Origin: a virus
Virus record (IMG/VR): IMGVR_UViG_3300020469_000072
Span: 1-49,572 of that record
Direction: 5' to 3' (one strand)
DNA length: 49,572 bases
This document shows positions 1-43,404 of the stretch, one piece after another. The position numbers and the translations under genes were made by a program. The notes below the pieces were generated by a model that was given only the letters and a program-made list of their open reading frames with translations, did no database searches and was not told the origin of the DNA. Position 1 is the stretch's first letter. Each line of letters opens with the position of its first letter.

Positions 1-3000
1 CTACAATAAACCAATTGAGATTCAATCTGTAACAGACATCACAATAACTCTTAAAGTTGCTAATACAGTACCTATTACAGATCAGAGTGCACACATCTAC
101 ATCCCTAATTCAGGGATGACTCCTACAAACATAGGTCATAATCCAACAACAGGTATGATGACAGTTACTGTTTCTGGTCATGGTATGGAAAATGGTGACA
201 TGATTAAGATTCAGGATAATGGAATATTACTTACTTGTGCATTAGATGATCATCAGACTACACATGCATATCCACGTCCTTCCGACCCTGCTTCAGGATC
301 ATGGTTAAAGATATCAAATGTAACTACTGACACCTTTGATGTTAAAGTTGTTACTAATACTCCACAGAGTGATACTTCTACTCACTTATTCTCAAGTGCT
401 GTTGGTAATTGTATTACTCAGGCACAGGTAGTAAGTGGTGGTATTTACGATCATACCTATTCAACTTCTACTGCTGATTGTTTACGTCATGCTGGTGATA
501 GTGTTAAGTTGGCAGATGATTCATTAGTATTCCGTTGCGATGAGGATGGTCAGGCAAGTGATCATGCTTATCCAAGATCTGCTACAACATCTGTAACACC
601 TTCTGAAGTATCTTACGATCCTAATATAGGTCATCTTAAGTTTACAGTTAATAATCATGGATTCTTACCTTACTCATATGTTAAGATTGCAGATAATTCT
701 TTAACATTCACATGTAAGAAAGATAACGATGCAACTGATCACTTATATCCAAGATCAACCGATCCTGTAAGTGGTAAGTGGATGCCAATTCATGATGTAA
801 CTCAAGATACATTTGTAGTTGAAGTATTAGATGTTATTCCATCTACAAATACTACAGTCCATTCAATTAGTAATGTTGCTGCAAACTGTGTTACACATAA
901 GAAGGATTACTTCTATGATACAAATATTCCTATCTACGAAGTAGGTAAGACAGATCATACTCCTACAAGTATCAGTTACAATCCTACTCATGGTTACATG
1001 CAAGTTACCATGACTAATAGTTTCACTAATGCAACAGGAATGTCACCAACTGGTGCTACATTCTATCCTGCTACAGGTACTATAAGAATAGATCTTAATG
1101 GTCATACTGTTAAGAATGGAGATATGATATTCATTAATGAGGGAGCATTTACATTCCGTTGTGATGAAGATAGTCAAGCATCTGACCACACATATCCAAG
1201 ATCATCTGATCCTGCTAGTAATAAGTGGATGAAGGCATTTAATGTTGGTAGTAACTCATTCGATATCAACGTTGGTAACTTCTTAGGTGAAGGTGCTATT
1301 TCTAACACCACAACTCACGTTTGCACAAGCATCGTTGGTGGATCAGTTTACAAAGCAAATGACTTTGTGATGTTTGATGAGAATGCAATTACATTTACTT
1401 GCACTAAGGATAACAATGCTACTAACCACACATATCCTAGAAGATCAGATCCTACATTTGGTAAGTGGTTACCTATTGCTAATGTAACCAATACTGGTTT
1501 CACTGTTTGGGTTGGTAAATCTGGTGTTAATGATGTTTATGATCATACCTTTGTATCAGTCGCATCTAACGGTCTTAAGAGACAAACTGGAACTATTACA
1601 TTAGATGTTGGTGACGGTGCTATTACTAACACTACAACTCATGTATTCCAGAGTGCTTCTGCTAATGCATTAATTGGTGGTGGTACTTACACACATATCT
1701 TTAAACCATCAACTCAAACATACACACCTACAGGTGCTAATTACAGTCCAACAACGGGTGTGATGACTCTTACCATACCTAATCATGGATTCTTGGATGG
1801 AGAGAGTATCAAGATTGGACAGAATTCATTAGTCTTTACATGTCTATTAGATGCTAATGGTAGTGACCACCCATATCCAAGAAATACTGACCCAGTATAT
1901 GACAAGTGGCTCACTATTTCTAACTGCACAGATCATACATTTGATGTCCAAGTACTAGAGAATATTCCATCAACTAACACGACTCTTCATACATTTAAGA
2001 GTGCTCTAACTGGTGCTGTTACAAGAGCAACAGTTGCAACTGGTGGTAACTACACTCATAAGTTTGTTGCTCCTGCACAATTAACACCAACCAATGCATC
2101 ATATATTCCTGCTACAGGTATTATGACATTGACTGTTGCTGATCATGGTCTTAAGAATGGTAGCAGAATCATGGTGGAGGATGGATTCGTAACATTCACA
2201 TGTGATCAAGATAGTGATCAAACTAATCATGCTTATCCAAGAGCATCTGACCCATATAGTCAGCAGTGGATGGTAGTTAAAAATGTAACTAAAGATACAT
2301 TTGATGTCCAAGTCTTATTCAATATACCTTCATCTAACACTACAACTCACGCATTTGTATCTGCTAGACCTCAGAGTATAACTGTTGCTACCTTATTCAA
2401 GGGTAATGATAGTATTAAGATTGCTGAGGGTGGTATAACATTTACATGCTCAATGGATGGTGGATCTTCATTGCATCCATATCCTCGCACAACTGATCCT
2501 GCATACAATGATTCACTTAGAATCGTTGATGATGGTATAACAAAATGGACACCAACTGCTGCTAGTTACACACCATCTACAGGTGTATTGGCATTGACAG
2601 TTAGTAAGCATGGATTCTCCAATGGTGACTATATTAGAATTGAAGATTATGCTTTGGACATGTCTTGTGATATGGATAATAATTCCAGTGATCATGCATA
2701 CCCAAGAGGCACAGATCCTATCAGTGGTAAGTGGGTACAAATTTCTAACGTATCTACAGATGGATTCGATGTTAACGTAGGCATAACTGCTGCTGTTAAT
2801 TACACTCCAACAGATGCAGATTATACACCTACTACAGGTGAGATGGAAGTTACTATTGGTACTCATCCACTTAAGGTTGGTCAAAGTATTCAGATTGCTA
2901 CAGGTGGTATAACCTTAGAATGTAGTCAAGACAGTTATGGATCAACACATGCATATCCAAGATCTACTGAAGATAGTTTCACTCCAACAAATGCTGTATA

Positions 3001-6000
3001 TGTTGGAGAGACAGGTTACTTAACAATTACTTCTAATGCTCATGGATTAGATGAAGGATCACTTGTTAAGATTGATGACAATGCAATAACCTTGCGTTGC
3101 ACAATGGACGGAAGTCAACAAGACAAGACTTATCCTAGATCTTCTGATCCTATTAGTGGTAAGTGGAAGCCTATCGAGTATATCGATGCTAACACATACA
3201 AGATCTTTGTTGGTAAGTCTGAATTTAAGAGTTTCGATCCTCAAAATGTAGATTTTACTCCTGGAACAGGTGAAATGGTAGTTACTGTTGGTCCTGACCA
3301 CGGTATTACAACTGCACACAGTGTTTATATTAACCGTGAATCAATGTGCTTTACTTGTGGGCAAGATTCCTACGGTAGTGATCACTTCTATCCACGTCCT
3401 AATGGTAGTGGTGGTGCAACAGGAGATGATCCTGCATACGCTAATGCTGTTTCTGTCGTTTCTGTTAGTGATAGCACAATTACTCTTGACGTTGGTACTT
3501 CTTCTAACGTTACACCTCACGTATTCAAACCTGCTGTCGGTGTAACACCAACTGCAATTTCATATAGTGGTGCTACTGGTCTTATGACTGTTACCATTGC
3601 TAATCATGGAATGATAAATGGTGAGCAAATCATGTTTAATGATAACTCATTAATTTTCACATGTAATCAAGATAGTCATGCAACTGAGCATGCTTATCCT
3701 AGACATAGTGATTATGCAAGTAACACATGGTTAACTATTCAGAATGTTTCTACCGATACATTCCAAGTACAAGTATTGGATAGTATACCTTCTACTAACG
3801 TAACTACTCATACATTTAAGAGAGCAAAGGTTGGTGCTGTTAAGAGAGGATCAATCAGAGGTGGTGGATCATTCACTCATAGTTTCCAATCATTCGCTTC
3901 TAATGGTCTTAAAGCGAAGAGAGATAGAGCATACGATCATGCCCTTGAAATTAAGAAGGTTGGTCACGCTAAGTATTCAGCAACTGGTGCTGCTTACAAT
4001 GCTGCTACTGGTATATTAACACTAACAGTTGCTAACAACCCATTTGCAAATGGTGACCATGTAAGAATTGCTGACGATTCATTGGTCATGACTTGTGACA
4101 TGGATAATAATGGATCTAATCATTCTTATCCAAGAGCAACAGATCCTGCTTCAGGTAAGTGGTTAGAAATCTCAGGTGTATCTGGCAATGACTTCAATGT
4201 TAATGTTGGCACTACACCTCGTGCTAACTACCTAGTTTCTGCTGCAACATATGAGCCTACTACAGGTGTCATGACAATGACTATTGGTGCTCACAACTAT
4301 AATGCTGGTGAGTCAGTATACATTGAAGAAGAGTCACTAGTATTCAAGTGTCAAGCAGATAACTTTGGTAGTGAGCATAAGTATCCTCGTGCTAATGGTA
4401 ATAGTGGTGCTACTGCTGATGACCCATATTATGATGATGCATGTCCTATAATTTCCGTTACTGCTGACACTATAACAGTTAACGTTGGTATCTCTAGTAA
4501 CGTTACAACTCACCAGTTTGTAAGATCTGAAAATGCATTTACCCCAAGCACAGCTTCTTATGTCCCAGGTACAGGCGTATTAACAATAACTGTTAATGGT
4601 CACCCATTTGAGAATGGAGATAAGGTACAACTTAAGAATGGTGCATTTGTATTCGAGTGTAATGAGGATAGTTATGGATCTCTGCATCCATATCCTAGAG
4701 CACAAGATCCTGCTGCTGGCGAATGGTTAGTAATCTCTAATAAGCAAACAAATACATTTGATGTTAACGTAGGAGTTTCTTCTAACACTTCAACTCACCA
4801 GATTTCATCTATTGTTACAGGTGCTGTTATTAGAGGTACAATCCGAGGTGGTGGTGAATATACACACGCATTTGTCTCTGCTGTTGCTGATGGATTAGAG
4901 AAGAAGAATTCTACAATTACGGTGAACGTGGGATCAACTGTTGCTGGTAATCATACACACAGATTTGCTTCTGCTACATCTGGTGCTATTACTGCTGGTG
5001 GTAACCACACTCACACATTTGAAAGATTTAAGAATAAGTCTCTACACAGACAAAGTGGTAAGATTACAGTTAATGTAAATATTGCAGCATCTAACAATCT
5101 ATACGATCATACATTTGCAAGTGCGTTACCTGGAGCAGTAATTGCTGGTGGTAAGTATCAACATGCATTTGTATCTGCTAAGACAGATGGTGTTTGGAAA
5201 GCAAATAGTTATATTAAGATTTCAGATCATGCATTATCATTCCAATGTGATCTTGACAATTACGCTACAGATCACCTGTATCCTAGAGCAACTGACCATG
5301 CAAGTAATGAATGGTTAGCAGTATCTAATGTAGACGCTAATGGAAATGACTTTGAGGTACAAGTCCTTAAGGGTGTCCCATCAACCTTCTTAGGTGCACA
5401 TACATTTGTATCCTGTATCGATGACGGTATACAAATACAGAATGGTAAGATACGAGTTAATGTTGGTGTATCTCCTGCTGGTCAGACTTATCAACATACA
5501 TTCGTAAGTGCAAACTCTGGATGTGTAATACAGGGTGGTAATTATAAGCACAATTTTGTGAGTGCTGCATCCAATTGTATTGAAGTAGTTAATGATGGCA
5601 CTAAGTTAACACCTACAGATGCATACTATGATCCAATTACAGGTGAGTTAACTCTAACTGTTGCTGGTCATAGTTTGAGAGCTGATGATGCTGTGATTAT
5701 TGTTAGTAACGCACTAACATTTACATGTAGTCAGGATAGTAATGCTACCAACCACACATACCCTCGTGTAACAGATTATGCTGATGGTAAAGTATTACCT
5801 GTATTGGGACTTACATCTTGGGCATATCCATTTAGATCTAAACTAGAATATTACAGACAACGTAGGGTTAGCACTGATTACACTGGTAATGAGGGATCTA
5901 ATGTTGAGGCAGAAATTTCTACTTTGATGCAATTTGTAACTGATGCAATAACAACTCCTGCTAACGTTGCAACAAGATCTTACATAATGCCAACCATATG

Positions 6001-9000
6001 GCCTGTTAAGTATACTCCAGAAGTTATGGTAAGGGATCTAACGATTACCTATGATACTGCTGCTGGTGGATCTGGAAGTAACGGCACTTGGAATCAAGTA
6101 TGTGGTGAAGTAGCATCTGGTATAGACACATTATCAGAGATTATTATTGATACAATATCTAAAGCAGCAAATGGTCAAGGTAATCATCTTGCTACTGTAA
6201 CTAAAACATATCCATACAACTCTAATGCAAATTATCAGGCAGGTACATGTTACAACGTAACATCTGCTATTGATACTGTATTCGATCTAATGATTGATGC
6301 ATTGGGTGCTGGAGAAAATAATGCTAAAATGATATCTAATATGATATTATTCAATCAGCAAGCAATTGCTGCTAGAGCATTTGCAGATACACAAGCATCA
6401 TATCCAACTACCAATCTTACTATTGACTTTGCTAATAATGTAGTTAAGGGAGTCCGTTATGACTTAGTAACTAGTGGTAATGCTGGAGCATTTAGATTAG
6501 CACAAACATGGTTTGATGGTGAAGGCAACTTCATTGCATATAGCAACGTTACTAGAACACATCTATTATTCTGCTTATCTAAACTTCGTCAGTATTGTAA
6601 GAGTATATTATATGAGCCTGATGCAGCAGGATGGGCATCTTACGATGTATACATCCCATCAGATAGATTAGAGTGGAATCAAGAAGCAGCTGAGTTTGAA
6701 ATTGATTCTTCACTTAACCCACTTGAGTTCTCATTGGAAATGTCACAATTCCCAACTGAAGCAAGGGCAACATTTATCGCATCTACTGATGCTCTTAACA
6801 GAGTTACTAAGAATGAGATGGGTGTTGATTACAACACAGATCCAGAATTGGTAAGTCTAACTCCAGAAATTAATGTAGGTTATGATCGTGCTGAGTATAG
6901 AGTTAGAATTTACCAACCTAACTTCTTCCGTCGTGGAGATGTATTACAATACATTCCAGCATCAGAGACTTCATTAACTGGTCTTTCTGGACAAGAATTC
7001 TTCTATTGTTTAACTGCTACATCTGAGTGGTTTGAAATAGGTGCTTCTTATATTCACGATGGTAGATTTAGAAAATTAGAAGTAGATAAGTCTAATAGTG
7101 GATCTCAGATCTTTGCGGTTGTAAGAAGATCAGGTGTTACTAGAACTGCTTCTACTTACCCAACAGATACTTCTGAGACACCAATACAAGGTGGATTCAA
7201 TCCTGCTGATGTTATCTACGGATTTACATCAAATGCAAATGCTGAAGTTGGTCAAGTATTGCAAAACGAAGGTAAGATTTATAAACTCTATACACATTAT
7301 CCATCTGTTGCTGGTCAAACAATACCTCCAACATATGACAATCTAACTAATGGTGAATTAGTCACTGTTGATGGTGCTCCATCAAACACTGGTTATGTTT
7401 TACAAACTGCTCAACCAAATAGTGAAACAGGTGCATCTATTGTTAAGATTCATACTATAGCTGGTACAATATCTGACACTAACGTTATTACTGGTGCTGA
7501 TAGTGGCACTCAACATACACTTGGTGCACCATCTGATAGATTCTTAATTAACGTTGAGAATGGATCATTTGCTTCAGGTGATTGGTTCTTCAGTAAAGTT
7601 GGATCAGTTGAAGGTTATATGGATAACTATGAATCTAAGTCTGGATCCATAACTGGTAATGATGGTGGTAGAATTACGATGGATGTTGAGACCTTACAAG
7701 GTCAATGGGATATTGGAGATCTAATCTACGGTAGTATTACAGATTACATTTTAGAGATTAAGGGTATTACTGGTACACAGATTCAATTGAATCAGTATCT
7801 ACATGGAGTGCAGACTCTAGAGTTAGATCTAGGTGTAGCAATAATTGATACTGGTATCACAGATACATTTAATGTTGGTGATGAAGTAAGTCTTCTACAA
7901 GGTACTATTCAAAAGAATCCAGGATTCACTGCTATAGTTACTAAGTATCAACCTGAAGATTTAACTGCAACTCCACCGCTATCACACAAACTCTGGATTG
8001 CTAACTTAAATGATGTTGGTGTTGGTGCTGCTATAAGTGAATTAACACAAGCAGGTAACCATATTGGTAAGATAGAATTGGGATCTAACTTCCCAACAAT
8101 ATATGCTGGTGTATCAGGTTACACTGCAACAGACTATCAGTCTTATGGTAAGGTTGTTGCAATAGAGCAACAAGGTATTACTGCTACAATATGGATAGAG
8201 AATGCTAATGGCACATTTGTTGATAACATGTCACTTAAGTCTGACTTTGGATGGGGTGGTGGAGTTTCTAAAGCTAAGACTTTAGAAGGTAGAGTTGATC
8301 GTTACTTCCGTGGATTTGATGGCACTCAATCAACATTCGACTTAACCATCTCTAATGGTCAGGCATACTATCCAGATCCTGCTGGTCACTTACTAGCATT
8401 CGTTAATGGAATCTTGCAACCTCCTGGCGGTAACCAATCTTACGTTGCATTCTCAGACAAGATACAATTCTCTGAACCACCTGAAATTGGATCTGAGTTT
8501 ATTGGATACTACGTTGGTAAGTTACGTCAGTTAGATGATATCTCCTTCGAGTTTGACTCATTGAGATCCTCATTCAACCTTAAGCGTCAGGGTCTATTCT
8601 ACTCCTTGACACTGACTGAAGGTGTTTCCTCTAACGTTATACGTCCTGAGAATAACATTATCGTTTCACTTAACGGTATCATTCAGGAACCAGGAGTTGC
8701 ATATGAGATCGTTGGATCACGTATCATCTTCGCTGAAGTCCCACGTGCGGGATCAACCTTTGTTGGTTTCTCATATATTGGATCTGACGCAGACGTTATT
8801 GCAGCAACAGTTGTCCCACCAATTGAAGCTGGTGACAGATTGGATATTGACGGTGAGGAATTCCCTCGTGAAGTTGCTCTAATTGAGTCTTCTAACTCAC
8901 TAATCACATTTGAATATACTGGATCTGTTAAGGGTAGAAACGCAGCTGCTCTTGCTAATATAACTTCTGGTCAAATTACTAATGCCATAATAACCAATCC

Positions 9001-9601
9001 TGGCGATGGTTACTCCTCACGACCTAATGTTGACGTTATCTCTTCCTCTGGATTTGATTCACGTATTACAGCATTAATGGGTATTACTAGAATTGATGTT
9101 AAGACTTCTGGTAGTAATTACGCTGCACCATCCGTACTTATTGATAATGAAGTACCTGATGACTTTACACCTCCTACAGGCGGTGCAATTAACGGTGGAT
9201 TTGATGTCCTCGCAGGCGAAGGTCCATCAGGAGGCGAAGGTGGCGGTGGAGTTGATCCTGGCACAATTGCAATTACTCAAGATCCAGTTAACGTAACAGT
9301 TAACCAAGGTCAGACTGCTGGATTCACAGTCGTCTCAACTGTTACTAACAGTCAGACAATGAATTATCAGTGGCAGAAGAAGGAGTATGGCACACAGACA
9401 TGGAGCAACATTATTGGTGCTAACCAAGCAACATACTTAACAAATAATGCTGCACAGGCAGATGATGGAGATGAATTTAGAGTCGCTATCACTGCTGCTG
9501 GTGCAACCCCAGTTTACTCACTCTCTGCAATATTGAGTGTCCAGACTGGTGCTACTGTAATCAGTAACTTCACACCTAACCTCATCTTCGATGACATCTA
9601 A
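1..9601 (+). CDS. Giant repeat virion structural protein, 5' partial
   Basis: The reading frame is open from base 2 to the stop at 9599-9601, so at least 3199 residues are present and the true start lies upstream. The ATG at 116 is internal: the residues before it (IQSVTDITITLKVANTVP) are the end of another repeat unit. From about 2 to 5800 the protein is built of about 107-residue units with the pattern [Y-x-P-T-T-G-x-M-T-x-T]-[H-G-x-x-x-G]-[F-T-C-x-x-D]-[D-H-x-Y-P-R]-[T-D-P-x-S-G-K-W]-[D-T-F-x-V-x-V]; I count 18 Y-P-R sites. A non-repeat, partly helical part (about 5830-6900), a long beta-rich part and a Gly-rich linker follow, then an Ig-like domain (about 9260-9545). There is no signal peptide or catalytic motif. 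Its place before other tail and baseplate genes suggests a tail-fibre or baseplate-appendage protein. Identity as a virion protein is inferred. Confidence 0.85.
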   Translation, partial: YNKPIEIQSVTDITITLKVANTVPITDQSAHIYIPNSGMTPTNIGHNPTTGMMTVTVSGHGMENGDMIKIQDNGILLTCALDDHQTTHAYPRPSDPASGSWLKISNVTTDTFDVKVVTNTPQSDTSTHLFSSAVGNCITQAQVVSGGIYDHTYSTSTADCLRHAGDSVKLADDSLVFRCDEDGQASDHAYPRSATTSVTPSEVSYDPNIGHLKFTVNNHGFLPYSYVKIADNSLTFTCKKDNDATDHLYPRSTDPVSGKWMPIHDVTQDTFVVEVLDVIPSTNTTVHSISNVAANCVTHKKDYFYDTNIPIYEVGKTDHTPTSISYNPTHGYMQVTMTNSFTNATGMSPTGATFYPATGTIRIDLNGHTVKNGDMIFINEGAFTFRCDEDSQASDHTYPRSSDPASNKWMKAFNVGSNSFDINVGNFLGEGAISNTTTHVCTSIVGGSVYKANDFVMFDENAITFTCTKDNNATNHTYPRRSDPTFGKWLPIANVTNTGFTVWVGKSGVNDVYDHTFVSVASNGLKRQTGTITLDVGDGAITNTTTHVFQSASANALIGGGTYTHIFKPSTQTYTPTGANYSPTTGVMTLTIPNHGFLDGESIKIGQNSLVFTCLLDANGSDHPYPRNTDPVYDKWLTISNCTDHTFDVQVLENIPSTNTTLHTFKSALTGAVTRATVATGGNYTHKFVAPAQLTPTNASYIPATGIMTLTVADHGLKNGSRIMVEDGFVTFTCDQDSDQTNHAYPRASDPYSQQWMVVKNVTKDTFDVQVLFNIPSSNTTTHAFVSARPQSITVATLFKGNDSIKIAEGGITFTCSMDGGSSLHPYPRTTDPAYNDSLRIVDDGITKWTPTAASYTPSTGVLALTVSKHGFSNGDYIRIEDYALDMSCDMDNNSSDHAYPRGTDPISGKWVQISNVSTDGFDVNVGITAAVNYTPTDADYTPTTGEMEVTIGTHPLKVGQSIQIATGGITLECSQDSYGSTHAYPRSTEDSFTPTNAVYVGETGYLTITSNAHGLDEGSLVKIDDNAITLRCTMDGSQQDKTYPRSSDPISGKWKPIEYIDANTYKIFVGKSEFKSFDPQNVDFTPGTGEMVVTVGPDHGITTAHSVYINRESMCFTCGQDSYGSDHFYPRPNGSGGATGDDPAYANAVSVVSVSDSTITLDVGTSSNVTPHVFKPAVGVTPTAISYSGATGLMTVTIANHGMINGEQIMFNDNSLIFTCNQDSHATEHAYPRHSDYASNTWLTIQNVSTDTFQVQVLDSIPSTNVTTHTFKRAKVGAVKRGSIRGGGSFTHSFQSFASNGLKAKRDRAYDHALEIKKVGHAKYSATGAAYNAATGILTLTVANNPFANGDHVRIADDSLVMTCDMDNNGSNHSYPRATDPASGKWLEISGVSGNDFNVNVGTTPRANYLVSAATYEPTTGVMTMTIGAHNYNAGESVYIEEESLVFKCQADNFGSEHKYPRANGNSGATADDPYYDDACPIISVTADTITVNVGISSNVTTHQFVRSENAFTPSTASYVPGTGVLTITVNGHPFENGDKVQLKNGAFVFECNEDSYGSLHPYPRAQDPAAGEWLVISNKQTNTFDVNVGVSSNTSTHQISSIVTGAVIRGTIRGGGEYTHAFVSAVADGLEKKNSTITVNVGSTVAGNHTHRFASATSGAITAGGNHTHTFERFKNKSLHRQSGKITVNVNIAASNNLYDHTFASALPGAVIAGGKYQHAFVSAKTDGVWKANSYIKISDHALSFQCDLDNYATDHLYPRATDHASNEWLAVSNVDANGNDFEVQVLKGVPSTFLGAHTFVSCIDDGIQIQNGKIRVNVGVSPAGQTYQHTFVSANSGCVIQGGNYKHNFVSAASNCIEVVNDGTKLTPTDAYYDPITGELTLTVAGHSLRADDAVIIVSNALTFTCSQDSNATNHTYPRVTDYADGKVLPVLGLTSWAYPFRSKLEYYRQRRVSTDYTGNEGSNVEAEISTLMQFVTDAITTPANVATRSYIMPTIWPVKYTPEVMVRDLTITYDTAAGGSGSNGTWNQVCGEVASGIDTLSEIIIDTISKAANGQGNHLATVTKTYPYNSNANYQAGTCYNVTSAIDTVFDLMIDALGAGENNAKMISNMILFNQQAIAARAFADTQASYPTTNLTIDFANNVVKGVRYDLVTSGNAGAFRLAQTWFDGEGNFIAYSNVTRTHLLFCLSKLRQYCKSILYEPDAAGWASYDVYIPSDRLEWNQEAAEFEIDSSLNPLEFSLEMSQFPTEARATFIASTDALNRVTKNEMGVDYNTDPELVSLTPEINVGYDRAEYRVRIYQPNFFRRGDVLQYIPASETSLTGLSGQEFFYCLTATSEWFEIGASYIHDGRFRKLEVDKSNSGSQIFAVVRRSGVTRTASTYPTDTSETPIQGGFNPADVIYGFTSNANAEVGQVLQNEGKIYKLYTHYPSVAGQTIPPTYDNLTNGELVTVDGAPSNTGYVLQTAQPNSETGASIVKIHTIAGTISDTNVITGADSGTQHTLGAPSDRFLINVENGSFASGDWFFSKVGSVEGYMDNYESKSGSITGNDGGRITMDVETLQGQWDIGDLIYGSITDYILEIKGITGTQIQLNQYLHGVQTLELDLGVAIIDTGITDTFNVGDEVSLLQGTIQKNPGFTAIVTKYQPEDLTATPPLSHKLWIANLNDVGVGAAISELTQAGNHIGKIELGSNFPTIYAGVSGYTATDYQSYGKVVAIEQQGITATIWIENANGTFVDNMSLKSDFGWGGGVSKAKTLEGRVDRYFRGFDGTQSTFDLTISNGQAYYPDPAGHLLAFVNGILQPPGGNQSYVAFSDKIQFSEPPEIGSEFIGYYVGKLRQLDDISFEFDSLRSSFNLKRQGLFYSLTLTEGVSSNVIRPENNIIVSLNGIIQEPGVAYEIVGSRIIFAEVPRAGSTFVGFSYIGSDADVIAATVVPPIEAGDRLDIDGEEFPREVALIESSNSLITFEYTGSVKGRNAAALANITSGQITNAIITNPGDGYSSRPNVDVISSSGFDSRITALMGITRIDVKTSGSNYAAPSVLIDNEVPDDFTPPTGGAINGGFDVLAGEGPSGGEGGGGVDPGTIAITQDPVNVTVNQGQTAGFTVVSTVTNSQTMNYQWQKKEYGTQTWSNIIGANQATYLTNNAAQADDGDEFRVAITAAGATPVYSLSAILSVQTGATVISNFTPNLIFDDI
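2..5800 (+). repeat. Protein-level tandem repeat array, 18 'YPR' units
   Basis: Degenerate repeats of roughly 300-330 nt encode units carrying F-x-C-x-x-D/N-x-x-x-x-D-H-x-Y-P-R. Most units also carry a T-D-P-x-S-G-K-W turn and a D-T-F-x-V-x-V strand. Some end in G-G-x-Y-x-H-x-F, and a minority replace the TDP turn with a Gly-rich loop (near 3400 and 4390). The DNA has diverged while the protein signature is kept, so the array is old and under selection rather than a recent expansion. Confidence 0.85.
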
Positions 9602-9609
9602 ATAAGGAT

Positions 9610-11205
9610 ATGACAGCCACAGCATCTTATAACAATGCCACTAAGGTTATAACAGTGGAGTCCAACGGACTCCCTGCACCTGTATCCTTTGGCACGTTCC
9701 CAAATGATAATAACCCAAATACTGTAACTGAACAGGACTTCGATCATGACTTCTTATACCGTGGAGGAACATTTGGAATTGCTCGCACATTTGATAATAA
9801 TGGATATACACATGACGGATACATTAGAAGAATTACTATTTCAGTAAACGATCTTACATTGTTTACTAATAATCAAATATCTACTGAAGATAATATATTT
9901 GTCCATTTTAGTGATGGGTTAAAGCAAAAATTCATTTATAGAGGTACAATATTTACTTCTATTGCTGGTGAGTGTTGGTTATCGTCAGATGATCAATTAG
10001 ATTTTATTGTAGATACACAGGCAACTACTCCTGTTAGTGGCACATATGAATATTATGATCAAAGAAATGGAAGAACTGAGACACCTTTAGGTGCTATAGG
10101 AATTTCAGGTAATGGAGTAACTATTTTTAATCCTTCTGCTGGTGCTGGACTTAATCCACCATCAGGGTTTAGTTGGGTTGCTGCTGGAGATCTACCTTTT
10201 GTTAGTTCTGGGGAAGATTCTTGTGGTGGACACCCAGAACAAACAGGTCAATATCATTACCATGACCCACATTTCCTAGATTGTTGGAAAGCAAACTCTG
10301 CAATGGCGGGTTACAACGATTATTATGGGTCAACTCAGTTTAATGGAGACAATATTCGTCACCCTGATGGTCATTCTAAGATGATCGGTATATCATTTGA
10401 TGGATTTCCTATCTATGGACCTTATGGATATGATGTTGCATTCAATAATTTGAGTGGCGTTAGAACAATGAGGACTTCATACGGTGTCAAAGACACTGAG
10501 GCAGCTGGTAGACCTGATTATGGGTCTACTACAGACAATCCTCCTGCTGGAACTCTCATGGAGGACTATGAATATGTTGAAGGAACTGGTGATCTAGACA
10601 GTCATAATGGTAGATTTGCAATTACACCTGAATATCAGAATGGTACCTATGCTTATTTTCTTACTGTTGATGAAAATAATGTAGATAATACTAAATTCCC
10701 ATATATTATGGGATTTACAACTAGAGAAGTTATTGACACAACCTTCACTGTCTCACCTGTCCAACAAGGTGGAGGCGGTGGCGGTGATCAAGGTGGCGGT
10801 GGTGTAGTTCCAACATTGTCATTCGCCAACCAACCGCAAAACGTAACTGTAAATGCCAATCAAACTGCAACATTTACAGTCACAAGTTTAATAACACCCG
10901 AAGACGGACCAGTTACTTATCAATGGTATAGGTCTACAGACGGTGGATTTGCATTTGCTGCTCTTACTGGAGCAACAACAGACACATATGCAGTCACTGC
11001 ACTGTCATATATGACTGGATATCGTTATCGTTGTAGAATTACTGGTCCTGTAGGTGCTGCAACTCAAGCATCCAACTCACCATTAGATTCTAATCAAGTA
11101 TTATTAACTGTAACTGGTGGAGGTGGCAGTGGTAGCACCGATAATCGATTCGATAGCACCAGTAGCACATTAGATTCTACCTCACAAACCTTCGATGGTA
11201 CCTAA
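9610..11205 (+). CDS. YHYH-domain structural protein with C-terminal Ig-like domain
   Basis: This is a 531-residue protein. The middle carries the YHYH signature: G-H-P-E-Q-T-G-Q then Y-H-Y-H at residues 215-218, followed by S-F-D-G-F-P-I-Y-G-P-Y-G, which is typical of the YHYH family (Pfam PF14240), whose biochemical role is unknown. A Gly-rich linker near residue 395 leads to an Ig-like domain (about 400-500: N-Q-P-Q-N-V-T-V, Y-Q-W-Y, Y-R-C-R-I-T) resembling the Ig-like end of the upstream giant protein. The tail is Ser/Thr/Asp rich. The ATG at 9610 has AAGGAT just upstream and follows the previous stop by 8 nt. It is probably a tail or baseplate decoration protein. The His-rich motif could bind metal, but that is inference. 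Confidence 0.8.
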   Translation: MTATASYNNATKVITVESNGLPAPVSFGTFPNDNNPNTVTEQDFDHDFLYRGGTFGIARTFDNNGYTHDGYIRRITISVNDLTLFTNNQISTEDNIFVHFSDGLKQKFIYRGTIFTSIAGECWLSSDDQLDFIVDTQATTPVSGTYEYYDQRNGRTETPLGAIGISGNGVTIFNPSAGAGLNPPSGFSWVAAGDLPFVSSGEDSCGGHPEQTGQYHYHDPHFLDCWKANSAMAGYNDYYGSTQFNGDNIRHPDGHSKMIGISFDGFPIYGPYGYDVAFNNLSGVRTMRTSYGVKDTEAAGRPDYGSTTDNPPAGTLMEDYEYVEGTGDLDSHNGRFAITPEYQNGTYAYFLTVDENNVDNTKFPYIMGFTTREVIDTTFTVSPVQQGGGGGGDQGGGGVVPTLSFANQPQNVTVNANQTATFTVTSLITPEDGPVTYQWYRSTDGGFAFAALTGATTDTYAVTALSYMTGYRYRCRITGPVGAATQASNSPLDSNQVLLTVTGGGGSGSTDNRFDSTSSTLDSTSQTFDGT

Positions 11206-11228: not shown

Positions 11229-12710
11229 ATGGCAAAGCAAACCCTAGCAATTGGATCGTCAGCTAATGACGGGACTGGTGACAGTCTGAGAGATGGTGCT
11301 ATAAAATTAAATAGCGTCATTGATGAGTTGTATACCAATCTCGGCAACGATACCAATTTACAAGTAAATATAGGAACTCCTAGTTCAGGACAACTTCTAA
11401 AATGGAATGGAGCTCAGTTCGCTGAGGGTAATTTTGATAGTTTTACTGGTGATGTAGATGTTAATGGACATAAAATTGTATCAGCAGCAAATGGTGACAT
11501 AACTGTCCAACCAAATGGCAGTGGAGATATTAAACTCTGGGCTGGTGGCACAGGATCTGCTCTAACATACATCGATGGTGCTGATGGTAAGTTAAAGTAT
11601 ACTAATTCTTTTGCTACTACTGGAGATTTACCAGACAATGCCACCCATGATGGTATGTTTGCTCTTGTAGTTGCTGATAATACAGCAAGAGTTGCAACCA
11701 GTGGTGGTTGGAAGAAGATTATAGGTGAAGATCATAGTCTTGGTGATCTTGGTGATGTAGATATGACTGTTGGAGGTGGACCTTCCGACGGACAAGTCAT
11801 TAAATGGAATGATTCCAATAGTAAATGGGAACCTGCTAATGATGACTCATCAGGTGGAGGTGGTGGAGGCACTACTCAAAACTTATTTGAAACTATTAAT
11901 GGTGACACTGGTACCACAACAGCATCTGCTGCTACAGACACATTAATATTTGCTGGTGGCACTAATATTGCTACTGCTATAACAGGAGATACAGTCACAA
12001 TTAATATGACTGGTACTCTTGGAGAGGTTAATCAAAATGCTTACGGAATTATAGGAAGTGACTCAGGAAACAAAACCGCAGATAGTGCATCTACTACTAT
12101 TAACGTCATTGGTGGGACTGGTATTAGTACTGCTATCAGTGGAAGTGATCTCACAGTTACAAATGACTCTCCTAACGTAACTCAAGTTGTCTATAGGACA
12201 ATCACAGGAGACTCAGGATCAACTACTGCTGCACTATCAACATCAACATTAAGTATTGCTGGTGGTACTGGTGTTACTACTAGTGCTACTTCAAATACAT
12301 TGACAGTCAATGCATCAATGTATACAGCATCATCACCTGAACAAAATGACAATATTATATACAATGGCACTTCATGGGATGCTGTAGAATCTCCTACAAT
12401 AGGATTTGAGATTGTTTCTAATGGATCATCAGCATATAGATTTACTGGTGGTGGAGTTGGTACAACAACAGATAATCCTACAATATATGTCTATAGAGGT
12501 TTCACCTATAGGTTTAATAACATAACTGGAGCAGCGCACCCATTTGCTCTTAGACAAACATCAGGTGGTAGCTCAGTAACTGCTGGTGTTAGTGGTAGTG
12601 AAAATGGTGTCCAATATTGGACAATCCCGATGAATTTAGCTGTTGGAACAACTTATGTGTATCAGTGCACATTACATGCAGCAATGGTTGGAAACTTAAC
12701 GGTAGTCTAG
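11229..12710 (+). CDS. Fibre-like protein with C-terminal cupredoxin-like domain
   Basis: This is a 493-residue protein. The N-terminus (I-G-S-S-A-N-D-G-T-G-D-S-L-R ... K-L-N-S-V-I-D-E-L-Y) is a motif common at the start of phage fibre proteins. The middle (about 45-385) is Gly/Thr/Asn-rich beta repeat, including three related T-x-x-I-x-G-G-T-x-I/V-x-T-A segments. The last ~100 residues look like a cupredoxin: V-Y-R-G-F-T-Y-R-F, then H437-P-F, then Y-Q-C480-T-L-H483-A-A-M486-V-G-N-L-T-V. His, Cys, His and Met match the four ligands of a type-1 copper centre, and C-x2-H-x2-M has the spacing of amicyanin. The protein lacks a signal peptide, so an electron carrier of the cell envelope is unlikely. 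A virion domain that binds copper or uses only the fold is more likely. Fold assignment is by motif only. Confidence 0.75.
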   Translation: MAKQTLAIGSSANDGTGDSLRDGAIKLNSVIDELYTNLGNDTNLQVNIGTPSSGQLLKWNGAQFAEGNFDSFTGDVDVNGHKIVSAANGDITVQPNGSGDIKLWAGGTGSALTYIDGADGKLKYTNSFATTGDLPDNATHDGMFALVVADNTARVATSGGWKKIIGEDHSLGDLGDVDMTVGGGPSDGQVIKWNDSNSKWEPANDDSSGGGGGGTTQNLFETINGDTGTTTASAATDTLIFAGGTNIATAITGDTVTINMTGTLGEVNQNAYGIIGSDSGNKTADSASTTINVIGGTGISTAISGSDLTVTNDSPNVTQVVYRTITGDSGSTTAALSTSTLSIAGGTGVTTSATSNTLTVNASMYTASSPEQNDNIIYNGTSWDAVESPTIGFEIVSNGSSAYRFTGGGVGTTTDNPTIYVYRGFTYRFNNITGAAHPFALRQTSGGSSVTAGVSGSENGVQYWTIPMNLAVGTTYVYQCTLHAAMVGNLTVV

Positions 12711-24100: not shown

Positions 24101-27100
24101 ATGGCAAATAGAATACAACTAAGACGTGATGGTGCACAGCAGTGGGCTAACGTCAACCCCATCCTTGCTCAAGGTGAGTTAGGTATCGAAATTGATACTT
24201 CTCGACTGAAAGTAGGAGATGGTGTCACCGCTTGGAACTCTCTTAAATATGAGAGACCAATAGAAACTGAGTCAAACACTGCAAACACACTAGTAAAAAG
24301 AGATGCTGACGGTAACTTTGAAGCAGGTGCCATTACTGCCTCACTCGTTGGTAACTCTGCAACTGCAACAAGATTAGCAAACGCTCGACAAATTGCCCTA
24401 GGTGGTGATATGTCGGGTAGTGGTACGTTCGATGGATCCTCGAATTTAACCATTACTTCAGAGTTGAATTATGTTACAACTCTTCCACATTATGATGCTA
24501 ACGATCTTGCTGCAACAGGTACGTACAGTCAGGTAACAATTGACTCTAGAGGTCGTATTGTTAATGCTTCAACACCTACAAGCTTAACTGCTTATGGTAT
24601 TACTGACGCACAACCATTAGATAGTGATCTAACATCGCTAGGTGCGATGACTACCTTTGGTTTACTTTCACGTCAATCTGAGGGTACCATAGTCAGTAGG
24701 ACAATTACTGGTGGTAGTCAACGTATTATTGTTAACAATGGTAATGGACAATCATCCAACCCATTCATTGATCTAGCAGACACAACAGTTGTTGTTGGTA
24801 GTTACAACCCCGTAGGTAACTTAGACACACCTCTTATCTCTGCTACGACTGGTGATGAAACAGTTAACACAACTAACCTTACTGTAGACAGATATGGTCG
24901 TCTGACATATGCTCAGACTTCTGCTATTGCTACTGCCAAACAAGGTACTAAAGTTGCTGTATATAACGCAGGTAGTGCATATCCTCGTTATAGCATAGTA
25001 AAGAATGCTGCTGATAAACTCTATCAAGCAATTTTAGATATCGGTGCTGGTGCTGGTGAACCATCTCATACTGATACATCTGATGCAGGATCATGGAGAT
25101 ACCTATCAAGTGCTGTTGCACCTCAGAAAGGTATAGCATCATTTGCTCAAGAAGATTTCGATGTAACTTCATGGATTGACCCAGAGCAGGGTGGTCATGT
25201 TACAATCGCAGAAAGAGGTGTAGATAATTTACAACTACAAAATAATAGAATTGGTTTTGCTGATGGCAATACCTTAGAGAATTTTGAATTAGATCAGGAG
25301 TTGACAGCAACTACTGGTTACAGAGGATTTAATTACCTTAACTATACGAAGGTAAACGATACAACTGGTAATCTATTAGTTGGTGCTAATAACCAAGGTA
25401 ATGGTAGTTCTGGTGCTATACAGGCAGTTACTAACATAGTAGTTACAGTAGGTGTAGACACAGTAGGTGGTCAAGTAACAGGTGTATTCTATATTGACGG
25501 TGTAGAAACACCTGTGATGAATCTTAAGAGAGGAATAAAATACATATTCAATCAGAATGATTCTTCAAACGCTACTTATGGTGGAGTAGGTCAACCTCAT
25601 CCATTAATGTTTAGTCTCACAGAAGATGGAGACTTAATCCCTGGTGGTGCTCACTATATGCCTGGGATTCACTACTTCTTGGATGGTGTTGAGAAAACTA
25701 TGGCAGAGTATACTGCTCAGTTTACTGGTGCTACAAATAAAATAGTAGAATTCTTAGTGCAAGATGAAGCACCTGCTACACTCTATTATTGGTGTCATCA
25801 TCATACAGGACAAGGTAGTAGTATTAATATTACTGATGGTGGTGCAGGTGAATTTGATGTTAATGTAAGATCATACTTCAGTCATCCTGATATTACCTTA
25901 GATGGTGCAATTACTCAGACAATTGATAAGACTGGTGATGGTCATCTAAATCTCCAACTTACCCAGAATACTGGGATGGATAGAAACTTAAGTATTCTTT
26001 CTACTAATGCTGGAGCTGGTAATGCTACCATTCTCATACAATCTGAGAATGATATAACAATAGCAGCAAGTAATGTTGCTAATAGAGTCCATGTAGAGGA
26101 CTATTGGTTACAGGATAACGTCCTGTCTACAACCAATGCCACTATGATATTAGACCCTAATGATGACGATGATGTCACAGGTCTAGTACAGATTCGTGGA
26201 GATCTACAGGTAGATGGTACAACGACCACGGTAAATTCAACTGTTGTTACCATTGATGATCCTATTTTCACACTGGGTGGAGACACTGCTCCTGTAGCAG
26301 ATGATAATAAAGATCGTGGTATAGAATTTAAGTATTATGACACGCAAGCAAGACTCGGATTCTTCGGGTGGGATGAAAATTATGCAGACTCTAACATATG
26401 GTCTAGCACTGGTGGGTTTAGGTTCCTCTACAACGCCACTAACACCTCTGAAGTTTTCACTGGTACTGACGCTCCTCTCATTGCTGGTAACCTCAGGCTC
26501 ACAACCAACACAGGATCAACCTCAACCACGACGGGCACGTTGGTGGTCACGGGGGGATTAGGACTCTCTGAAAATGCACACGTAGGTGGCACTGTTACTA
26601 TTGCAGGACAGTCAGAAGTTAATAATAATGTAATCCTTAAGGCAGATAATAAGTCATTTAATATACAGACTGCTGCTGGAGTAGATAAGTTTACTGTTGA
26701 TTATGATAACGGTAATACAGTAATAGAAGGTACAGTTGATATTCAACTAGAGACCACAGTTACAGATAATCTTATTGTAAAGGCAGACGCTAAGAAATTT
26801 GATATTCAGACTGCTGCTGGTGTAAGCGTATTCGACGTAGATACTGACAACGGTAACACACATACAGATGGTACTCTTGACGTAGACAGTGGAGTAACAT
26901 TTAATAGCACATTAGATGTAGATCTTGCTACTACTCTTAACAGCACATTGGATGTTGATGATGATGTAGTCTTCCATAATGACTTCCTAATGGATGTCAC
27001 TGGTAAGACATTTACTATTACCAATGGTACTGATCAGAAGTTTAAGGTAACTAGCACTAATGGTAATACAGATATTGAAGGCACTCTTAATGTCAATTCA

Positions 27101-30100
27101 CTAAGCACATTTGAGAAGACAACAAATATAACAGTTGATACTTCTGCTGATGATGCTATTACACAGACAGCAACTGGATCTGTAGATATAGACGGTGGTC
27201 TTAATGTAGATGTTGACCTTCGTGTTGGTGGAGATCTATATGTCTCAGACAGAATTGATTCTAAGGATGCTGGCACAGCAAGGACACGTCCTTCTCTACT
27301 TAATAACTTAGATGTAAGATATCGTGAGTATATCGGTAGTGTTGCAGCACATAATGCAGACTTTGCTAATGACCCAGATGCAAACTTAAGGGTTGCTGGT
27401 GGTGCAGGTATCGTAGCAGACCTACATGTAGGAGATGACTTCTATGTTGGTAAGGTTGGCACTAACGATAACGTAGAATTTTCTATTTTAGGTGAGTCTG
27501 GATATACAACTATAGGTCGTGCAGGACAGGGTGGTGCAACAGATGGTGCTATCGTAGTCCACGGTGACGCAACATTTAATAGAGAAGTTAATATAACTGG
27601 TAGTCTAACAACTGTAGGTAATGCAAACACTGATGTATTAACAGTCAATGCAGTATCACAGTTTACAGATAACGTCACAGTAGATGGCAACTTAACAGTT
27701 AACACCAACGCAGTTGTTGAAGGTAACCTCACAGTTAATGGTACAACGACCACGGTAAATTCAACTGTAGTTACTATAGATGACCCTGTATTTACTTTAG
27801 GTGGTGACACAGCTCCTGGTAGTGATGATGCTAAAGATCGTGGTATTGAATTCAAATACTATGATTCTCAAGCACGTGTAGGATTCTTTGGTTGGGACAA
27901 CTCTGCTTCAAGATATCTATTTGCTCATAATGTAACTAACAGCTCTGAAGCATTCTCAGGCACTAAGTCTGGTATTGATGCTGGTAGTATAAAACTATTT
28001 GATACAACTAATTCAACAACTGCATCTTCAGGTGCTCTAATCGTAGGTGGTGGTGCTGGTATAGGTCTTAATCTATATGTTGGTGCAAACTTAGATGTTA
28101 ATACTAATACTGACATCGGTGGAAACCTTAATGTTGTAGGTGATTTTGATCTAACTGATGACTTTAGAATTAATACTGATAAGTTTACAGTAGATGCTGG
28201 TACTGGCAACACATATGCAGAGGGCACACTACAGGTTGATGGTAACGTCACCCTAGGTAATGCTTCTGGTGATTCTCATAGTGTCACAGGTACAGTACAG
28301 TTCAACCAAGCAATCACTTCCACAGATATCACTGCTGATCAGATTCAGATTGGTGTTGATGCTGCTAATGAGATCAGCACTACTTCTGGTAATTTAGTAT
28401 TAGATTCTGATGGTGGCACAGTAAATGTTACCGATGATCTAGACGTAGATCTTAACTTAAATGTAGATGGAAATACAAAAATCGATGGCACTCTTACAGT
28501 TGACGGGAATGCTACTATCGGCAATGCTTCTGGTGACAATCATATTGTTACTGGAACAGTTACTTTCAACCAAGCCATTACATCAACAAACATCACTGCG
28601 GATTCTGTTACCATTGGTGTGGATTCTGACGGTGAAATTAGCACAACTACTGGCGTTAACCTCATCCTCGATTCCGCAACTGGAGAAACTCAGGTTGATG
28701 ATAACCTAACTGTTACAGGCACATTAGATGTAGATGGTAATACACAGATTGGTAATAACTCTTCTGACGCTCATGCCTTTACAGGTACAGTAACATTTAA
28801 TCAGGCAGTTACTTCAACTGACATCACTGCCGATAACGTGCAGTTGGGTGTATCAGGTTCATCTGAAGTTGATACTTCATCAGGTAACTTAACTCTTGAC
28901 TCTGCCACAGGTGAGACAATTGTTGATGATAACTTAACTATCAATGGTACATTGGATGTTGATGCGTTAACAACAATTACTGATGCTCTAACAGTCAAGG
29001 CAGATAACAAACTAGTCTCTATTCAGAATGCTGCTGGTCTAACTAAGTTTGAAGTTGATACTGATAACGGTAATACAGATATTCAAGGCACGGTAAACAT
29101 AGAGGGTGCTACAGTAATTGATGACACTCTTAATGTTACACAGGCAGTAGATCTAGACACTACATTGAATGTAGATGGTGCTGCAACATTCCAAGACAAT
29201 GTTGTATTAAATGCTGACAACAAAGAATTTGCTATACAATTAAATGATGGTACTGACAAGTTTACAGTCCAGTCGGCAACTGGTAATACAGACATTCAAG
29301 GAACATTGGATGTCAATGGAGCTACTAATGTTACTAACACTGTTGGTATTACTGGTGTTACCTCCGTTACTAATGCTACTAATCCTGCTAACCTAATTGA
29401 CACTGCTGCGTTTAACGTAACAGGTGGTGCAATAATTTCTAAGGATGTCTTCCTTGGTGAAGACTTCTACATGGGTCCAAATAATGCATCAACATTCTCT
29501 GTTGTTGGATCATCTGGTAATACTCTAATTGGGGGCACACTTGGTGTAACAGGTACAACTACTTTAGGCACTGCTGACGTTAGCACATTAAATCTTACAT
29601 CTAACGCTAACATCTCTGGATCTATTATCGTTAACACCAGCAAGTTTATTGTTGCAGGTGCTTCTGGTAATACTACTATCGATGGTACATTGGATGTTGC
29701 TGGTGCAACTACTATAGATGACACTCTTAATGTCACACAAAATGTAGACCTTGATTCTAATCTTAATGTAGATGGTAATGCTCAGATAGATGGCACACTT
29801 ACTGTTGATACAACCTCACTATTAAAAGACAGTGTTGTATTACGTGGTGGATCTAAGACTCTGAAACTACAGAATGGTAGCAGCACTGATAAGATCACAC
29901 TGCACTCCACATCTGGTAACGCAGAGATCACTGGTACTTCAACTCTTGGTACTCTTGACGTAACAAATAACACTACTATAGGTGGCACACTTGGTGTAAC
30001 AGGTCAGATCACTGGTAATGTAACTGGTGAGTTAACTGGTAATGCTGCCACTGCATCTCTAATTGACGTTACTGAGACTGCTTCTTCTAACCTAACTTAC

Positions 30101-40632: not shown

Positions 40633-43404
40633 ATGGCATCCACACAACTTTCACCAGGAGTTGTCGTACTTGAAAGAGATCTGACCAACGTAGTCAATGC
40701 AACAGTAGATAATATTGCTGCTATCGTTGGATCATTTGAAAAAGGACCTGTAGAGCAGGTAACTAGTATAACTAGTGAAAAAGAATTACTTTCAATCTTC
40801 GGCAAACCTACCAATTACAATTACGAGTATTGGTTTAGCGCAGCACAATTCTTACTTTACGGAGGAACCGTTAAAGTAGTTCGTGCGATGAATGATTCGT
40901 TAAAGAATGCTATCGACACTGCACAGTTCACTGTTTCTACATTCAGTGCTTCTGATACAACTCTGACAGTTTCTTCATCTACTGATTTTGATGTTAACGA
41001 TGTCCTATTAATTGATGCTGAATTAGTTACCATCTCTGCTGTTTCTGGTAACGACGTTACTGTTTCACGTGGACAGTTAGCAACTTCTTCTGTATCTCAC
41101 GCTGCTGCAACTTCAATCACATTGATTGAACCTGCTGGCACATCATCTACCATCGCTGAAGGTGGTACCTATAGTGATTCTGATGTTACTCTAACAGTTA
41201 CATCTGCTGCTGCACTTGGTGCAGGTACTAACTCATACATCAGGATTGATGATGAGATTCTTCAAGTATCTTCTATTGCTGGTAACGATCTAACCGTTGT
41301 CCGTGGACAGTTGGGCACAACTGCTGCATCTCACGCTGATGGATCTTCTGTTTCACTACAGACAGTTACAACAAACAAGACTGAGATTAATGAGCAAACT
41401 GCAACTGGTGTTTCTGCTCCTTTAATTAAGAATCTTGACACATATGAAGCAAACGTTGAGACTGCTTCTAACAACTGGAAGTGGGGAGCTAAGACTTCTG
41501 GTAGTTTCGGTAACTCAATTCGTGTTGTCATAACAGATGCTGGACCTGATCAATTATTATATCTTGCTCAACCAACTTCTAGTGAGTGGGAGTTTGTAAA
41601 CAACGCTGAGATTTCATTTTCTAATGCTAACATCTATGGTCGTGTGTATGACTATACTGTTGTCATTACACTTAAGGATGATTCAAACTTAGTAGGTAAG
41701 TTTGAGAAAGACAATTATATCACTGCTGTTAGTGGTGGTGTTACAGGTCGTGTGGTTGCTTATGATCAAGTAAATCGTAAGTTGGAAATTGCTGTTGATG
41801 ACACTGCATCTGATATTCTTGAAATCAATGATACCATTACTGAGTTAGCAAATAACTCTAACACACCTGGCTCTGCCACTGGTGATTCTGGTGCTGTTGA
41901 ATCAATTAGTCGTCAGTTGCGTGTTGCTCTTAATCAGGGATCACCTAACTTCCAAGCAAACCAGACAGTTGTTGATAAAAATGCTGCAACAATCTCTATT
42001 GCTAACGTAGAGTCTGACTACGAGTCAAGACTATACGGAGAGAATACAAAGTGGATTAACGTTGCTGCACGTCCTACTACTTCTGCATGGGTTGCAGAGC
42101 GTGGTGGTCACAATGACTTGATGCACATCTTGGTTATTGATGGAGATGGTAAGATCACAGGTACTCCTGGATCAGTTCTTGAGAAGCACCTTAATGTTTC
42201 TAAAGCAAATGATGCTAAGTCACCTCAAGGTGATAACATCTATTACAAGGATGTAGTCAAGACATACTCTGAGTACCTATATTGGGGATCTCATGAGACT
42301 GCTAATGTCTATGATAAAAACACTTCTGCAAGTGGTGTCTTTGGTGTATCTGGTATTAACAGAGAGTTTGACCTTATTAAGTCAGCTGCATCTCTTAACA
42401 ATCTAGATGATCCAACTGGTACTAACCCACTAGCAATACCTCTACTAGGTACTAAGAATAGAGCAACCTTACGTTACTCTTTACAAGGTGGTGTTGATGG
42501 TTATACCATTGCACGTCCTGATATTCTTGGTGCATATGATCTCTTTGCAGATGCAGAGACTGTAGACATTGATTACCTACTAATGGGTCCATCCATGAGT
42601 GGTATTGATGATACAATTGCTAAAGCGCAGCATGTAATTTCTATTGCAGCTTCACGTAAGGATTGTATTGCATACGTCTCACCTTATCGTGGTGATGTAA
42701 TTGGTCAAGCAAAGACTTCTACTATTGTCTCACGCACAGTTAACTACTTCGATCAGTTGAGTAGTACTTCTTATGCGGTATTTGACAATAACTACAAATA
42801 CATATATGATAAGTATAACGACAAGTATCGTTATCTTCCATGTAATGCTGACGTTGCTGGACTAACACTTAGCACAACACTTCAGCAAGAGCCTTGGTAT
42901 TCACCTGCTGGTTTCAATAGAGGACAGTTGAGAAATGCAATTAAACTTGCTTACTCACCTCTAAAGGATCACAGAGATACCCTTTATGCTTCACGTGTTA
43001 ACCCAATCGTAGCTTTCCCTGGACAGGGCATTGTCCTCTTCGGTGATAAGACTGCATTGAGTTATGTTTCTGCCTTTGACAGAATTAACGTTAGACGTTT
43101 ATTCCTAGTCATGGAAGAAGCAATTTCTGACGCAGCAAAGACCCAACTATTCGAGTTGAATGACGAGTTTACTCGCCAACAATTCAAGAACATTGTTGAG
43201 CCATACCTACGCAGTGTCCAATCAAGACGTGGTATTGTTGACTTCCTCGTAGTTTGCGACGGAACAAACAACCCTGCTGAATCGATTGACCGTGGTGAAT
43301 TCTATGCAGAGATATTTGTGAAACCCACAAGATCTATCAACTTCATCACATTGACCTTCACTGCAACCAGAACAGGCGCAAGCTTCTCTGAGTTAGTTAC
43401 TTAA
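40633..43404 (+). CDS. 18: Contractile tail sheath gp18, enlarged
   Basis: This is 923 residues (T4 gp18 is 659). The N-terminus (L-S-P-G-V-V-V-L-E-R-D-L-T-N, V-G-S-F-E-K-G-P-V) and the C-terminus (R-R-G-I-V-D-F-L-V-V-C-D, F-Y-A-E-I-F-V-K-P-T-R-S-I-N-F-I) are typical of sheath proteins. The extra length sits after residue 100: two copies of an 'RG module' (103-168 and 178-243), then a G-V-T-G-R-V-V-A-Y segment near 358-405 resembling the TSGA module. In T4 the variable, protruding domains of gp18 lie in the corresponding N-terminal half, so these would decorate the outer sheath. A ribosome binding site (AGGAG) precedes the ATG. Confidence 0.95.
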   Translation: MASTQLSPGVVVLERDLTNVVNATVDNIAAIVGSFEKGPVEQVTSITSEKELLSIFGKPTNYNYEYWFSAAQFLLYGGTVKVVRAMNDSLKNAIDTAQFTVSTFSASDTTLTVSSSTDFDVNDVLLIDAELVTISAVSGNDVTVSRGQLATSSVSHAAATSITLIEPAGTSSTIAEGGTYSDSDVTLTVTSAAALGAGTNSYIRIDDEILQVSSIAGNDLTVVRGQLGTTAASHADGSSVSLQTVTTNKTEINEQTATGVSAPLIKNLDTYEANVETASNNWKWGAKTSGSFGNSIRVVITDAGPDQLLYLAQPTSSEWEFVNNAEISFSNANIYGRVYDYTVVITLKDDSNLVGKFEKDNYITAVSGGVTGRVVAYDQVNRKLEIAVDDTASDILEINDTITELANNSNTPGSATGDSGAVESISRQLRVALNQGSPNFQANQTVVDKNAATISIANVESDYESRLYGENTKWINVAARPTTSAWVAERGGHNDLMHILVIDGDGKITGTPGSVLEKHLNVSKANDAKSPQGDNIYYKDVVKTYSEYLYWGSHETANVYDKNTSASGVFGVSGINREFDLIKSAASLNNLDDPTGTNPLAIPLLGTKNRATLRYSLQGGVDGYTIARPDILGAYDLFADAETVDIDYLLMGPSMSGIDDTIAKAQHVISIAASRKDCIAYVSPYRGDVIGQAKTSTIVSRTVNYFDQLSSTSYAVFDNNYKYIYDKYNDKYRYLPCNADVAGLTLSTTLQQEPWYSPAGFNRGQLRNAIKLAYSPLKDHRDTLYASRVNPIVAFPGQGIVLFGDKTALSYVSAFDRINVRRLFLVMEEAISDAAKTQLFELNDEFTRQQFKNIVEPYLRSVQSRRGIVDFLVVCDGTNNPAESIDRGEFYAEIFVKPTRSINFITLTFTATRTGASFSELVT
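40939..41136 (+). repeat. RG module copy 1 within gp18
   Basis: Encodes T-L-T-V-S-S-S-T-D-F then L-L-I-D-A-E-L-V-T-I, V-T-V-S-R-G-Q-L-A-T-S and S-H-A-A-A. It is paralogous to the copy at 41164-41361. Confidence 0.8.
41164..41361 (+). repeat. RG module copy 2 within gp18
   Basis: Encodes T-L-T-V-T-S-A-A-A-L then I-R-I-D-D-E-I-L-Q-V, L-T-V-V-R-G-Q-L-G-T-T and S-H-A-D-G. It matches copy 1 across about 65 residues. Confidence 0.8.

Follow-up and report, generated by a model that had tools for sequence, protein, structure and literature searches.

The C-terminal ~105 residues of the gp9 protein of a marine virus (record IMGVR_UViG_3300020469_000072 of IMG/VR, analysed over its whole 49,572-nucleotide stretch, here called the window) probably form a cupredoxin module with a complete type-1-like site, which would serve the fibre joint as a docking domain or adaptor and hold one metal ion, most likely copper. 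Cupredoxins have been described chiefly in electron transport and as oxidase domains, and the module is here a fixed part of the baseplate connector in cyanophages; the fold and site are known and the structural setting is new. Among the openly accessible journal papers searched, none describes a cupredoxin domain as part of a phage virion, and the one match joining cyanophages with cupredoxins concerned Borgs. Support comes from the identity of gp9, the structure model and its fold matches, a profile match, invariant ligands, and the recurrence of the domain in virion proteins. All coordinates given are those of the window and all features lie on the plus strand.

The open reading frame at 11229-12710 encodes 493 amino acids and is a gp9 homologue, the T4-type baseplate wedge and tail-fibre connector. 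The N-terminal half of the protein matches PHROG 677 ("baseplate wedge tail fiber protein connector") with an E-value of 4.5e-139, and residues 3-69 (11235-11435) form a T4 gp9/gp10-type domain that scores above the cut-off of PF07880 (T4_gp9_10_N, E 1.2e-8) and matches the T4 gp10 and gp9 chains of the PDB in a phmmer search. This combination of N-terminal domain and family is that of the T4-like gp9 connectors, and the gene position equals that of the annotated wedge gene of P-TIM40 and S-SZBM1. In a comparison based on gene size and position, the order of giant structural protein, ~530-residue protein, gp9, ~620-residue protein and gp8 is matched in P-TIM40 and similar in S-SZBM1. The preliminary description had taken the N-terminus to be fibre-like; it is rather of the T4 gp9/gp10 type, and the protein is not simply a fibre. 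A fibre-like stalk does occur further along, as three repeats of ~50 residues (11895-12347) that begin near residues 223, 274 and 325, carry the motif G-D-S/T-G-x-T-T-A...GGT, resemble PHROG tail fibre proteins and are followed by the ~105-residue C-terminal domain. The source virus is most likely a cyanomyovirus near P-TIM40 and P-RSM6, because its packaging and head region is nearest to these two Prochlorococcus phages (76-77% DNA identity over part of the region).

Within the last ~100 residues of gp9, the complete His, Cys, His and Met set noticed in the preliminary description is present, as H437-P-F (12537-12545) and C480-T-L-H483-A-A-M486-V-G (12666-12692). The candidate metal ligands are H437 (12537-12539), the thiolate of C480 (12666-12668), H483 (12675-12677) and, as axial ligand, M486 (12684-12686). 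The protein has one Cys, five His and seven Met residues, so C480 is its only cysteine. The spacing C-x2-H-x2-M, which had been likened to that of amicyanin, aligns without gaps on the amicyanin ligands in a profile alignment (YqCtlHaaM against YHCTaHPFM). H437 falls two residues off the amicyanin His in the sequence-profile alignment, and the context of this first His is PHN in amicyanin versus HPF in the gp9 domain. In multicopper oxidases the type-1 His likewise stands in an HPF motif.

The conserved His, Cys, His and axial residue of type-1 copper proteins are all found in the family. H437, P438, C480, H483 and M486 are unsubstituted across 69 distinct domains wherever the sequence reaches those columns. 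In a set of 29 diverse domains with a median pairwise identity of 46% (minimum 28%), ten of the 104 well-occupied columns are invariant, comprising three Gly and two Tyr columns together with H437, P438, C480, H483 and M486; the hypergeometric probability of all four named ligand columns falling among these ten is 4.6e-5. Because the motifs used in the first retrieval overlapped the ligands, gp9 copies were retrieved again with residues 358-434 only, leaving out the ligand region, and the four ligands are kept in every complete copy obtained in this way. The length of the ligand loop varies in some copies (C-G-I-P-S-H-T-S-M, C-T-I-H-E-T-N-M) with the ligands retained. As judged from these alignments, conservation of the four candidate ligands is far above background.

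Residues 385-493 (12381-12707) are, according to the predicted structure, a Met-type cupredoxin-fold domain with the ligands at their canonical places. The AlphaFold2 model, computed from 28 sequences (the window domain and its environmental relatives), has a pLDDT of 91.9, a pTM of 0.84 and nine strands, in keeping with the Greek-key beta sandwich of about eight strands that defines the cupredoxin superfamily. In the cupredoxin topology the first His lies near strand 4, the Cys ends the next-to-last strand, and the second His and the axial residue precede the last strand; in the model, residue 53 (H437) comes before strand E55-58, residue 96 (C480) ends strand E91-96, and residues 99 and 102 (H483 in the loop that joins the final two strands and M486 at its end) stand before strand E103-108. 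Copper proteins make up 49 of the best 50 Foldseek matches in the PDB, the exception being one coagulation factor VIII chain, and all 38 of the matches at E <= 0.001. They include nitrite reductase, rusticyanin, amicyanin, plastocyanin, a Nitrosopumilus cupredoxin, laccase and a pseudoazurin engineered to carry an amicyanin loop. The cupredoxin matches have a probability of 1.00 and moderate TM-scores of about 0.5-0.6, so the modelled domain shares the fold of solved cupredoxins and is not a close likeness of them. The blue-copper type of domain proposed in the preliminary description is thus borne out at the level of the predicted fold.

Profile searches agree with the model in part. Independently of the model, an HMM of the 29 viral domains finds amicyanin first in the PDB (E 1.5e-4), followed by plastocyanins, nitrite reductases and azurins, and a fibre-like relative from P-SSM2 exceeds the Pfam Copper-bind cut-off on its whole-protein score (23.3 versus 21.2 bits). 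The profile comparison proposed in the preliminary description thus supports a cupredoxin-type domain. Taken alone, the window domain has no match to Copper-bind (PF00127; 16 of 29 relatives weakly matched) and matches no NCBIfam family, including the amicyanin model TIGR02657 (20 of 29 relatives weakly matched, best E 0.0011).

Amicyanin of Paracoccus (TIGR02657, PDB 1aac), the best PDB profile match, shares with the gp9 domain the cupredoxin fold and the C-x2-H-x2-M loop. It is a soluble, single-domain periplasmic electron carrier for methylamine dehydrogenase, whereas the gp9 domain is fused to a baseplate protein; no partner genes of methylamine dehydrogenase are found near gp9, where the genes that match known families encode phage structural proteins, packaging proteins and nucleases. 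Plastocyanin, of the Copper-bind family, has the fold and ligand types in common with the gp9 domain, and its Cys-to-His and His-to-Met spacings are longer. The petE plastocyanin of cyanophages is a metabolic electron carrier (PMC3037559). An origin of the domain from a petE copy is unsupported, as the domain profile found virion domains and no separate open reading frame of plastocyanin size in cyanophage genomes.

The domain is a recurrent module in cyanophage virion proteins. A tblastn search finds it in 316 phage records, nearly all of them Synechococcus or Prochlorococcus phages, and the N-terminal part of gp9 in 303 phage records at a stricter E-value than that of the domain search. It is C-terminal in gp9 of P-SSM7, P-RSM4, S-B64 and further phages, N-terminal in a protein of the podovirus P-GSP1, internal to the long tail fibre of S-SCSM1, and present twice in a fibre-like protein of P-SSM2. 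The domain, of a kind that the preliminary description considered unusual for a virion, is standard in cyanophage gp9 and recurs in other cyanophage tail proteins. Recognition of the fold puts a structural name on a domain that over 300 phage records carry without one, in proteins labelled "connector" or "hypothetical". In T2 the domain is absent from gp9 and has no match in the whole genome. A strict restriction to phages of photosynthetic hosts does not hold, as the Methylophilales phage Melnitz-1 has a gp9 lacking the domain and one match in another open reading frame. Fold matches in BFVD are chiefly cyanophage structural proteins, plus giant-virus "beta-sandwich proteins"; three of these small proteins, from metagenomic relatives of Pithovirus and Marseillevirus (A0A481Z6J5, A0A481Z7Q7, A0A481YWX9), match the cupredoxin model. 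A genome scan for cellular copies gives 12 loci only, mostly on marine MAG contigs that are possibly viral. The domain is encoded on a small number of MAG contigs from marine bacteria and on a single-cell contig of Prochlorococcus (L169-L180), several of which may be viral.

The window encodes a second cupredoxin-like domain, of Gln type (25421-25834), in a 2563-residue virion protein with an Mtd_N N-terminus (24101-31792; PHROG 697 "structural protein", E 0; PF18454, E 2.8e-13). Its candidate ligands are H500 (25598), C565 (25793), H568 (25802) and Q571 (25811), in the motifs H500-P and C565-H-H-H568-T-G-Q571, i.e., C-x2-H-x2-Q. None of these four ligand positions varies in 23 sequences, the AlphaFold2 model has a pLDDT of 87.5 and a pTM of 0.84, and hhalign aligns the domain with that of gp9 at a probability of 97% with Cys and His matched. 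Its PDB fold matches are rusticyanin and AcoP, the best, and copper oxidases, and a profile search of the PDB with this domain gives no match. Rusticyanin natively has Met as the axial residue, in contrast to the Gln of the second window domain; Gln stands at the equivalent axial position in stellacyanin.

Further arrangements of these domains occur in other viruses. Some gp9 open reading frames, of 641-645 residues (L097, L098, L099 and L242), have a Gln-type domain mid-protein and a Met-type domain at the C-terminus. In other cyanophages, the wedge protein encoded downstream of gp9 (L093, at residues ~353 and ~557; L086, L082 and L169) contains tandem cupredoxin-like domains, one with C-x2-H-x2-M and the other lacking the Cys and second His (residue 557 in L093). 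The Gln-type, Met-type and site-less domains therefore constitute a family of cupredoxin-fold domains in cyanophage tails. A virion protein neighbouring gp9 (9610-11205) combines an Ig-like stretch with a YHYH domain (PF14240, E 3.8e-35); YHYH may be a further metal-binding domain, and the YHYH protein of L101 and L196 also contains a Gln-type cupredoxin-like domain.

The fold can survive loss of the site, since some related cyanophage baseplate domains no longer have the Cys or the second His, and this bears on whether gp9 keeps fold and residues without copper, with the site empty or holding zinc or another metal and the Cys, His and Met serving packing. The site-less sister domains, as at residue 557 in L093, are consistent with this explanation, and the protein folds in the host cytoplasm, where free copper is scarce. 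The gp9 domain differs from some of its sisters, however, in that the site is kept in every complete copy examined, and none of the four positions varies between the gp9, fibre and podovirus settings, even at identities as low as 28%. Packing alone is disfavoured because this invariance exceeds what packing would be expected to need, and a copper-free site is on balance unlikely.

In the preferred reading, the metal-holding cupredoxin module would cap the wedge-to-fibre connector of the cyanomyovirus baseplate. The window gp9 shares its N-terminal domain family with T4 gp9, the socket of the long tail fibres. T4 gp9 is trimeric; it binds gp7 through its N-terminal domain, and its C-terminal domain receives the long tail fibres in coaxial attachment (PMC3004832). 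By analogy, the module is most likely a compact domain for docking, or an adaptor, where fibre and baseplate join, because the end of gp9 to which the T4 fibres attach is the end that the cyanophage module occupies. One metal ion would lock the ligand loop, and this would most likely be copper from the host or seawater, copper being the expected metal because of the ligand set. The docking role draws on T4 by analogy, although gp9 of the T4 group has 288 residues, lacks a cupredoxin-like domain and is unrelated in its C-terminal sequence, as in T2. Also weighing against the preferred reading are the moderate TM-scores, the offset of H437, the site-less sister domains, and the lack of a Copper-bind or amicyanin match for the window domain.

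The same metal could instead act as a lure, the copper or other metal of the domain being recognised by a metal receptor in the host outer membrane as a copper version of the Trojan Horse. In favour, the domain occurs among isolates almost exclusively in marine cyanophages, and in some genomes it is repeated in several virion proteins. Against, no such host receptor is known, and gp9 sits at the connector and not at the distal fibre tip. The precedent is an iron one, the HxH iron site of T4 gp37 and the Trojan Horse hypothesis reported for tail fibres (PMC11705849). The HxH repeats, found in T4 gp37 and in marine tail fibres, resemble the gp9 site in placing metal on a tail protein of marine phages, but they are pairs in a trimeric fibre that bind iron without a cupredoxin fold or a Cys or Met ligand (PMC11705849). 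The case for a lure is purely one of analogy, and a lure is distinctly unlikely.

A redox switch or sensor, in which Cu(I)/Cu(II) exchange or oxidation of the sole Cys alters the conformation of the fibre joint with the surrounding redox state, would make use of a ligand set that is that of electron-transfer cupredoxins and of a Cys that is invariant, and the second domain, with Gln as its axial residue, should differ in potential. The virion is extracellular and lacks an obvious electron source, and none of the window genes that match a known family encodes an evident electron-transfer partner, which makes such a switch very improbable. That the short C-x2-H-x2-M motif arose by chance in an unrelated beta domain is ruled out for practical purposes by the agreement of fold search, profile search and conservation.

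The predicted blue-copper fold and the unchanged ligand residues in all relatives suggest, short of proof, that cyanophages of this kind, common in the ocean, have metal on their tails. A bolder proposal, held tentatively and at slightly short of even chances, is that cyanophage virions are copper metalloparticles, in which each gp9 (18 copies, if T4 is a guide) and the further Met- and Gln-type domains of other tail proteins hold type-1-like copper needed for joint stability or attachment. The blue-copper fold would then be used in a virion without electron transfer, in an abundant group of ocean viruses. If the domain does bind metal, cyanophages could need traces of copper (or another metal) to be infective, marine viruses would make up a reservoir of bound copper, and the site would offer a simple handle for testing fibre attachment in cyanophages.

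Two other structural proteins of the window have unusual features. A 3161-residue virion protein (116-9601) contains 17 copies of the motif C-x2-D-x5-H-x-Y-P-R, spaced 59-196 residues apart. The tail sheath protein (40633-43404) has 923 residues, about twice the length of the PHROG 23 profile (496), which implies a large insertion.
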